A DNA stretch of 57,872 nucleotides from Candidatus Omnitrophota bacterium. GTDB lineage: Bacteria > Omnitrophota > Omnitrophia > Omnitrophales > Aquincolibacteriaceae. The stretch lies in assembly GCA_016930235.1 (NCBI GenBank), contig JAFGHI010000047.1:150215-208086 (forward strand), read 5' to 3'. A model generated the notes under the pieces. It did not search any database. It was not told the origin of the DNA and worked only from the letters and a program-made list of their open reading frames with translations. The stretch's first letter is position 1, and every line of letters starts with the position of its first letter. Positions 34,924 to 37,082 of the stretch are shown here, one piece after another. Both the position numbers and the translations under genes were made by a program.

Positions 34924-35187
34924 TTATTTGCTTAATTTCCCAAGGCTTTCCCGTAGTATTTGTTTTAAGGTCGTTTTCCCTTTTGCCGTTTTAAAATAGG
35001 TTTCACGCCTTATAGCATCTTTTTTGGACAGATGCGCTTCATCGTAAACTAATTCAAACGGCCTTCTTGGTGCCGTAGACTTCGTCTTGCCCGAGTTATG
35101 ATCATGTAATCGTTATTCCATATTATGAGTAAACCCGACATAAAACTTTCCGTCAAAGCTGCTCAGAAGAATATAAACGAAGTACAT
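34924..35187 (-). pseudogene. GIY-YIG nuclease-family protein interrupted by one in-frame TAA
   Basis: Translation MYFVYILLSSFDGKFYVGFTHNME*RLHDHNSGKTKSTAPRRPFELVYDEAHLSKKDAIRRETYFKTAKGKTTLKQILRESLGKLSK; stop at 35113-35115. Confidence 0.85.
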
Positions 35188-35272: not shown

Positions 35273-35319
35273 TGCAAGATCAAGTCCAAGAATGGATCTT
35301 GCAGCTCAGGTTCATGGCG
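35257..35319. repeat. Perfect 25-bp inverted repeat (13-nt loop) overlapping the tRNA-Ser 3' end
   Basis: cgccatgaacctgagctgcaagatc / gatcttgcagctcaggttcatggcg. Confidence 0.9.
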
Positions 35320-35404
35320 GAGAGGAAGGGATTCGAACCCTTGAGACCTTGCGGTCTACTCGCTTTCCAAGCGAGCGCACTCGACCGGGCTATGCGACCT
35401 CTCC
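35315..35404 (-). tRNA. tRNA-Ser(GGA), CCA encoded
   Basis: GGAGAGGTCGCATAGCCCGGTCGAGTGCGCTCGCTTGGAAAGCGAGTAGACCGCAAGGTCTCAAGGGTTCGAATCCCTTCCTCTCCGCCA; class II with variable arm. Confidence 0.95.
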
Positions 35405-35410
35405 GCGTAA

Positions 35411-35446
35411 TAGACTCAAGACTACAGACCAAAGACCGCAGACTAA
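35411..35446 (-). repeat. Degenerate heptamer (GTCTNNN)n cluster upstream of tRNA-Ser(GGA)
   Basis: Minus: GTCTGCG GTCTTTG GTCTGTA GTCTTGA GTCTATT. Confidence 0.8.
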
Positions 35447-35567
35447 AAGATTTTTAATCCGCGCGGGCCCTTTTAATAATCTTTATATCACTGCTTTCAA
35501 AAGCAAAGGTCTCCTTCAAAACGGTAAAGCGCCAAAAACTTTTATAACAATCGATTCCTCTTTTGAT

Positions 35568-35600
35568 CTTTTGTCTTCGGTCTTCAGTCTTGGGTCTATC
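35568..35600 (+). repeat. Heptamer (GTCTNNN)n cluster in inverted orientation
   Basis: Plus: GTCTTCG GTCTTCA GTCTTGG GTCTATC. Confidence 0.75.
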
Positions 35601-35601
35601 T

Positions 35602-36093
35602 TTATCGTTTTTCTTTTCTCAAGCTGCGAAAGAACTCTTGAAGCAGGAACCTCGCTTCGTCTTCCAGCACGCCTCGAATCACATTGATTTGGTGATTCAG
35701 TCTTTCATCCGTCGGAATCCGGTAAAGACTTTCACAAGCGCCTGCCTTGGGGTCTTTGGCCCCATAAACAAGATTTTTACACTTCGAAAGAATAAGGGCT
35801 CCTGCGCACATCGTACACGGTTCAAGTGTCACGTAAAGTGTCGCCCCTTCCAAAGATCCCCGGTGTCCTTTCTTTCCTTCCGATAAAGTCTCGGCAGCCT
35901 GTGTAATGGCAATCATTTCCGCATGCGCCGTTGGATCCCTCAAGGTCTCCATCTGATTATGGGCGCGCGCAATGATGCGATTCCCATGAACGATAACAGC
36001 GCCAACCGGCACTTCCCCTTTATCGAGAGCAATGGCCGCCTGCTTCACAGCCTCTTTCATGAAATGCTCATGGATGGATGTTTTATTAGCCAT
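35602..36093 (-). CDS. tadA: tRNA-specific adenosine deaminase TadA
   Basis: 'PTAHAEMIAI' and 'LYVTLEPCTMCAGALILS' zinc/catalytic motifs. Confidence 0.93.
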   Translation of the reverse strand: MANKTSIHEHFMKEAVKQAAIALDKGEVPVGAVIVHGNRIIARAHNQMETLRDPTAHAEMIAITQAAETLSEGKKGHRGSLEGATLYVTLEPCTMCAGALILSKCKNLVYGAKDPKAGACESLYRIPTDERLNHQINVIRGVLEDEARFLLQEFFRSLRKEKR

Positions 36094-36102
36094 ATATAAG
36101 TC

Positions 36103-36236
36103 CGCGCCCGGAGAGGATTTTCCGCCATACTACTCGGCGGACCCGCCACGCTTTGTGGCGGGGAACCTGCAACCTTCTGAACCGTAAGCCCTTTCCGCCA
36201 ATCTTTCCGGCGGAAGACGCTCTGGTTCACACGGGA
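36103..36236 (-). pseudogene. tRNA-Arg copy interrupted by two palindromic inserts
   Basis: Matches the neighbouring tRNA-Arg in three blocks (AGAGCGTCT; TACGGnTCAGAAGGTTGCAGGTTC; AAATCCTnnCCGGGCGCG) separated by ~28- and 42-nt palindromic sequences. Confidence 0.8.
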
Positions 36237-36264
36237 CAGCTGTTAAAAAACAATTATGAAACCA

Positions 36265-36333
<69 letters not shown>

Positions 36334-36338
<5 letters not shown>

Positions 36339-36374
36339 AAAACTTTTAACTCTGTACCGCAAAAGTTTTGCGCC
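36334..36374. repeat. Perfect 14-bp inverted repeat overlapping the tRNA-Arg 5' end
   Basis: ggcgcaaaactttt / aaaagttttgcgcc, 13-nt loop. Confidence 0.9.
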
Positions 36375-37082
36375 TTGCGCTGTACGCGACTTCCTTGGTC
36401 GCGACAGCGTCGTACCTGCACACCGGTGCAGGTGCGGGCGCACACTTCTGCGATAACGAATAACTTATCAAAAGAACAACGCCTTTTCCCTCGGAATAAT
36501 CACCTTCCAGGGCGGGCGCTTGTTGCCTTACTAGATTCCCGCCCAAAACATGCGGGAATTACAAAATAACGATCACCACCATAATGCGTGAGAATGACTT
36601 TTATGCGCACTCCCCTTTACTTAGCCGTCCTACGAAGCTCCGAAGGAGCGTAGCAGGATGGGCACCCTTGCGTTTCTTGCGCAAGAAATGTGCCGTGACG
36701 GTTTAAGGAAAACCGTCTACGGCAGCTGCACTAACCTTTGAATACACAAACTATCTATAAGAACACTCTCCAATATAAGGGTAGGCATTATAACAGATGG
36801 GCTTATGTTTGCAAAAGGCTTAGGGATAGCACGTTACCTTACCTGAAAAATCCGCTTTTAAAGCGCTTCGGTTTCAATCGCCACCGCTCATAACTCATTC
36901 CCGCCTTACGTGTCACCTTTTATGCCTTCTTCTACCGTCGAGTCAACAGTTGAAAGGATGTCGACCTTTCTTGGAATAAGAACTTTCTCTGGGGCTTGCT
37001 CTCTTCTATAATAGCGCCATCTGTTTAGTTTATGATGGAATGAACGGTAACAAAAAGTTCTTTTCTCAAAAGGTCGCTTTAT

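Follow-up and report, generated by a model that had tools for sequence, protein, structure and literature searches.

In E. coli, the rtT of tyrT consists of tRNA 3' ends repeated downstream of the tRNA gene, and the mitochondria of Allomyces carry double-hairpin elements (DHEs). Double hairpins are mobile pieces of mitochondrial DNA, and the RHE of sponges is a related hairpin repeat (PMC2800124). In phages T4 and T6, the GIY-YIG homing endonuclease SegB is located in a tRNA cluster; it is often found beside tRNAs, cuts in tRNA-containing DNA, and drives repeats of tRNA plus segB (PMC2988022, PMC13096335).

We analyzed a 57,872-nucleotide stretch of a Candidatus Omnitrophota genome, referred to as the window (GenBank assembly GCA_016930235.1, contig JAFGHI010000047.1, positions 150,215 to 208,086), which holds a tRNA-Arg copy broken by two palindromic inserts. 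As in the rtT repeats, tRNA 3' ends are repeated 3' of a tRNA gene, but rtT has no palindromic insert, nuclease, or 5' pieces. The inserts resemble mitochondrial double-hairpin elements and RHE in being short, GC-rich, dispersed hairpins with many genome-specific variants, and they are also called DHEs here. However, the DHEs described here are bacterial, have the fixed arms TCCGCC/GGCGGA and CCCGCC/GGCGGG, are concentrated in partial tRNA copies, and are linked to GIY-YIG genes; the likeness is one of form, as the elements are too short for homology. With REP/REPIN sequences and their RAYT (Y1) transposases they share the character of short intergenic palindromes without target duplication, but they lack a GTAG-type foot, and Y1_Tnp is not visibly commoner in DHE genomes. 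The proximity of GIY-YIG and tRNA genes is reminiscent of the free-standing GIY-YIG homing endonucleases of T-even phages such as SegB, whereas the units described here lie in bacterial chromosomes, encode proteins of approximately 82 aa in which only the GIY-YIG domain is recognized, and place the gene between a palindrome-broken tRNA piece and a whole tRNA. We found no description of palindrome-split bacterial tRNA copies with GIY-YIG genes in the literature searched, although subscription papers were mostly outside the search and a prior description is possible.

The broken tRNA-Arg copy and its two inserts

The window contains an intact tRNA-Arg gene with the anticodon ACG at 36264-36339 on the minus strand (ARAGORN; Rfam RF00005, 66.8 bits). 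Between this gene and tadA, the gene for tRNA adenosine deaminase (35602-36093, minus strand; an open reading frame with a match in 38 of 40 relatives), sits a broken 3'-side copy of the same tRNA with two inserts, at 36104-36223 on the minus strand (alignment to the intact gene; blastn), which ends approximately 10 nt before the tadA start at 36093. A tRNA-Ser (GGA) gene is located at 35315-35404, also on the minus strand (ARAGORN, Rfam). The genes for tRNA-Arg(ACG), tadA, and tRNA-Ser are adjacent in several phyla (window 35315-36339; L062-L141), and TadA is thus linked with the gene for its substrate, tRNA-Arg(ACG).

Alignment to the intact gene resolves the copy into three homologous blocks at 36215-36223 (AGAGCGTCT), 36163-36186 (TACGGTTCAGAAGGTTGCAGGTTC), and 36104-36120 (AAATCC..CCGGGCGC), of which the middle block is identical to the intact tRNA-Arg at 23 of 24 positions. 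In blastn searches, this block alone gave an E value of 1.4e-4 against the whole 2.3-Mb genome and approximately 1e-6 when the search space was 1 kb. Because the blocks also follow the same order as in the intact gene, the similarity is not due to chance, and since neither the D-arm nor the 5' strand of the acceptor stem can be recognized, we regard it as a 3'-side copy. An earlier note, made from the letters of the window, had described a second tRNA-Arg copy in blocks, 3' of the intact gene and in the 5' region of tadA, and this observation is confirmed.

The two inserts differ in their makeup. The T-loop insert (36121-36162, plus strand; sequence and junction analysis) is a complete DHE of 42 nt, TCCGCC-N9-GGCGGA / CCCGCC-N9-GGCGGG, composed of TCCGCCATACTACTCGGCGGA plus CCCGCCACGCTTTGTGGCGGG and placed exactly at GGATTT^GAACC. 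Its two hairpins abut, their closing pairs differ, and the element is oriented antisense to the tRNA. The second insert (36187-36214) interrupts the anticodon stem on its 5' strand and consists of a single hairpin, TCCGCC-N9-GGCGGA (36194-36214, minus strand; from the sequence), at GTCT^GAC, beside a 7-nt filler, AAGGGCT (36187-36193, minus strand; from alignment to the intact gene), that replaces the three tRNA bases GAC. We read this hairpin as the first of a second DHE that would have lost its second hairpin; another locus (L258) carries a DHE at the same anticodon-stem site, GCT^GACTC. The earlier note's two inserts with a TCCGCC...GGCGGA hairpin in each were correct, with the refinement that one is a double hairpin and the other a single hairpin with filler. 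Upstream of the intact tRNA-Arg, inspection of the sequence revealed TGCGCCCG (36435-36442, minus strand) ahead of a palindrome; it may be a 5' remnant, but at 8 nt the match is weak and may be due to chance.

The copy does not look like a functional tRNA gene. Neither ARAGORN nor Rfam called a tRNA at 36103-36236, folding of the broken-copy strand did not produce a cloverleaf, and the anticodon stem is disrupted by the second insert. In the closest relative (G014), an intact tRNA-Arg lies 79 nt before tadA, and there is no second copy. These results speak against the suggestion of an unusual tRNA-like RNA with inserts in its loops. The earlier note had also named two findings that would count against its view, of which the lack of the second copy in a relative was indeed observed in G014, and a failure of the block similarity in statistical testing was not. 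Its interpretation is overall partly supported.

An element family in tRNA copies and other RNAs

The inserts are copies of a real element family. Within the source genome, TCCGCC..GGCGGA occurs nine times and CCCGCC..GGCGGG twenty times, compared to once each for the reversed patterns. The fixed double hairpin is present in 11 of 40 order-level relatives and in 69 of 392 genomes of the phylum, and the reversed-pattern control gave 0 in both sets. These genomes are assemblies, probably many of them from metagenomes; the pattern recurs in dozens, including one assembled as a single contig (G091). Altogether, we collected 144 distinct, dispersed copies made of two tandem short hairpins with fixed arms and loops of mostly 3 or 9 nt. 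Identical or near-identical copies are found at different sites within some genomes (G035, G091), and variants are genome specific and amplified. Covariation at the loop ends of the hairpins is weak, with one pair paired in 58% of copies versus 41% expected and none at the other pairs.

As a candidate mover of the element, we considered a Y1/RAYT transposase and rejected it, as no association with DHE genomes was visible: Y1_Tnp is present in 313 of the 392 genomes overall with no excess in DHE genomes visible by eye, and one genome with eight DHE copies (G035) has no Y1_Tnp. Carriage of the element by viruses was likewise rejected, since the viral_contigs set gave no exact DHE match.

DHEs are enriched in partial tRNA copies. 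When the flanks of each copy were joined, 49 of the 144 aligned to a tRNA across the insertion point, compared to 3 of 683 positions drawn at random from these loci, and one of these three control matches is the window copy itself. Of 42 resolved junctions, nearly all show exact, gap-free insertion, and target duplication is absent. Sites within the tRNA include the D-loop (TT^GG), D-stem (GTAGCT^CA), anticodon arm, and T-loop (TT^C), and each position of a YY^NR motif holds in more than 90% of all DHE copies. Another partial tRNA copy in the source genome, a 3' copy of tRNA-Leu, also has a DHE in its T-loop (GGGTT^CAAGTCCC). At one of its loci (L055, contig C29, 14770-15175), a tRNA-Leu(TAG) is preceded by a 5' piece (t1-22) and followed by two 3' pieces, one of which carries a DHE in its T-loop; the first two pieces together make up one split tRNA. 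The earlier note's view of a decayed copy struck twice by a tiny palindromic element is consistent with these results, as the same element is inserted cleanly into tRNA copies elsewhere in the genome and the phylum.

DHEs are often found in redundant tRNA copies and also in some other structured RNAs. In six genomes, a DHE occupies the same site, gaggatt^agagcc, of the RNase P RNA gene (L310, L285, L275, L271, L241, L286). The DHE-bearing RNase P RNAs still score 139-181 bits against Rfam, and thus the insert seems to be tolerated in an essential RNA. Further DHEs lie in or at two FMN, two TPP, and four c-di-GMP-I riboswitches identified with Rfam, some of them below the curated cutoff (L297, L289, L281, L330, L230, L312, L166, L259; sense orientation where checked). 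By eye, we also found DHEs in REP-like palindromes, short tandem repeats, and some coding DNA. Those in tandem arrays lie between the repeat units, for example GATAGCT or GACACCT (L244, L251, L273, L274, L276, L277). A general targeting of hairpin loops was rejected, since non-tRNA junctions fell in a predicted hairpin loop in 12% of cases versus 12% in the control, and no such preference was seen at 15 DHE sites in other RNAs. As the DHEs in RNase P RNA, riboswitches, repeats, and coding DNA occur without GIY-YIG genes, the element may move independently.

GIY-YIG genes and the layout of partial tRNA copies

Partial tRNA copies have a one-sided layout. Among copies with a cognate intact tRNA in the same locus, all 16 of the 5'-part copies lie upstream of that tRNA and all 10 of the 3'-part copies lie downstream (26/26). 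Homology extends outward from the DHE to the tRNA end and stops within approximately 5 nt in nearly all cases, and inward past the DHE it usually covers only 5-12 nt. The window copy is of the 3' type with two inserts; copies of tRNA-Met at L173/L336 are alike, with inserts in the D-loop and T-loop. One idea is that recombination between short repeats may underlie this layout, as it would restore an intact tRNA only with the outer end on the outer side.

At six loci (L160, L173, L261, L268, L291, L298), the 250-310 nt that separate the 5' piece from the intact tRNA are an open reading frame of approximately 82 aa for a GIY-YIG protein, and the domain was recognized in seven open reading frames with Pfam PF01541 (E values of 1e-12 to 1e-16). 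A search independent of DHEs identified small GIY-YIG genes in 55 of 59 genomes. Of 70 matches scoring at least 60, among which a few loci are counted twice, 36 are located no more than 150 nt from a tRNA, and this tRNA is always on the gene's own strand; of 33 weaker matches, 4 are this close to a tRNA. Thirty GIY-YIG genes are followed by a tRNA at a distance of 0-150 nt. Of these genes, 22 are preceded by a 5' piece of that tRNA, and at the remaining 8 no 5' piece was detectable. The breaks of the 5' pieces are marked by palindromes (median inverted-repeat score of 14 versus 8, p = 1e-9) that belong to several families, the DHE being one. At L305, L329, L360, and L366, palindromes without sequence relation to the DHE sit in the loops or arms of 5' tRNA pieces, in some cases as tandem arrays. 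In L379, L378, L336, L381, L362, and L369, a 3' piece is also present downstream, which places the GIY-YIG gene and complete tRNA as a unit inside a split tRNA. No known group I or II intron was detected with Rfam (E values up to 0.5) in 15 GIY-YIG/tRNA loci.

In many genomes of the phylum, the disrupted copies are part of a larger unit made up of a 5' piece, a palindrome, a small GIY-YIG gene, a complete tRNA, and sometimes a 3' piece. Partial copies, palindromes, and GIY-YIG genes thereby form one recurring layout, which goes beyond what the earlier note had in view. In the source genome, three of four small GIY-YIG genes adjoin tRNAs. One in the window (34945-35187, minus strand) lies downstream of tRNA-Ser and is decayed, with one in-frame TAA (PF01541, 55.8 bits; 96 bits with the HMM built here). 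It is 63% identical to the intact GIY-YIG protein of a named Omnitrophota MAG (L083), in which the gene lies between tRNA-Arg(ACG) and tadA. For the placement of the source genome this identity is no more than suggestive; in a comparison of TadA proteins, the order formed a clade of its own and fell inside none of the named phyla.

At most loci, the piece and the intact tRNA are nearly identical, but one case looks like the replacement of a tRNA gene. In G018 (L015/L379, compared with L017 and L020), the halves of a split tRNA-Ser have the acceptor stem GGAGAGG/CCTCTCC, whereas the intact tRNA-Ser(TGA) beside the nuclease has GGAGGCG/CGCCTCC. Two genomes of the same genus (G021, G007) have an intact tRNA-Ser(TGA) after tadA with GGAGAGG/CCTCTCC and no GIY-YIG gene there. 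In this one case, given the shared stem, the simplest reading is that the halves represent the resident gene and the intact copy its replacement.

A proposed origin of the copy and competing explanations

Taking these comparisons together, the feature in the window is probably a nonfunctional 3'-side copy of tRNA-Arg(ACG) with one complete and one partial DHE, left as the relic of a tRNA-splitting process involving a GIY-YIG nuclease. In such a process, the GIY-YIG protein would cut a tRNA gene at a loop, repair of the cut would bring in a unit marked by a palindrome, the cell would be rescued by the complete tRNA in this unit, and the broken pieces would stay behind and then erode. All that is left in the window is the eroded copy beside the intact tRNA and, approximately 900 nt away, the decayed GIY-YIG gene, which may or may not have acted here. 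A difficulty for the proposed process is that an intact tRNA next to an active nuclease should be cut as well, unless recognition needs the upstream flank.

More tentatively, the tRNA-linked GIY-YIG units could be natural cleave-and-rescue elements, in which the nuclease breaks an essential tRNA gene, the unit supplies the replacement, and the palindrome marks the cut in the disabled resident; the window would then be a dead remnant. We consider this a possibility rather than an expectation. If true, tiny nuclease units would have invaded tRNA genes across the whole phylum again and again, replacing them, and the puzzling fragments of tRNA, the palindromic repeats, and the stray GIY-YIG genes of these genomes would all be explained by one process. 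Such units would also be a natural counterpart, in bacterial chromosomes, of engineered cleave-and-rescue drives.

The strongest competitor to a tRNA-splitting origin, though a rather unlikely one, is plain decay, in which a redundant tandem duplicate of tRNA-Arg was struck twice by a selfish palindromic repeat and the association of GIY-YIG genes with tRNAs is unrelated. Consistent with this, the window has no GIY-YIG gene between the intact and broken tRNA-Arg, its decayed gene adjoining tRNA-Ser instead, and a full-length tRNA duplicate carrying a DHE exists at L228. Partial copies without a DHE occur beside tRNA-Leu, and the RNase P RNA and riboswitch insertions are likewise free of GIY-YIG genes. 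However, decay leaves unexplained why every partial copy in the layout count has its outer end on the outer side, and why in many genomes a GIY-YIG gene is exactly what separates the intact tRNA from the 5' piece.

It is very improbable that the copy is an attachment-site scar, that is, the displaced end of a tRNA-Arg used as a site by an integrative element. The 3' pieces do lie downstream and stop at or close to the 3' end of the tRNA, a pattern known from tRNA-integrating islands, but upstream 5' pieces, which classical tRNA integration does not give, are equally common, the spacers of mostly 15-300 nt are too short for an integrase, and a DHE is present at the junction. Least credible of all is a functional tRNA-like leader of tadA, in which the retained UACGG of the ACG anticodon would allow TadA to regulate its own mRNA by binding it; the closeness of the copy to tadA, its intact TACGG, and the general knowledge that this tRNA is the TadA substrate would suit such a role, but the same kind of copy is found at many tRNAs without relation to tadA, the broken anticodon stem and non-cloverleaf fold argue against it, and autoregulation through a tRNA mimic is not supported by conservation, the copy being absent from G014.

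Apart from the DHEs, palindromic 12-mers unrelated to them are overrepresented in 358 kb of the source genome, for example as GCAGCTCGGAGC repeats.
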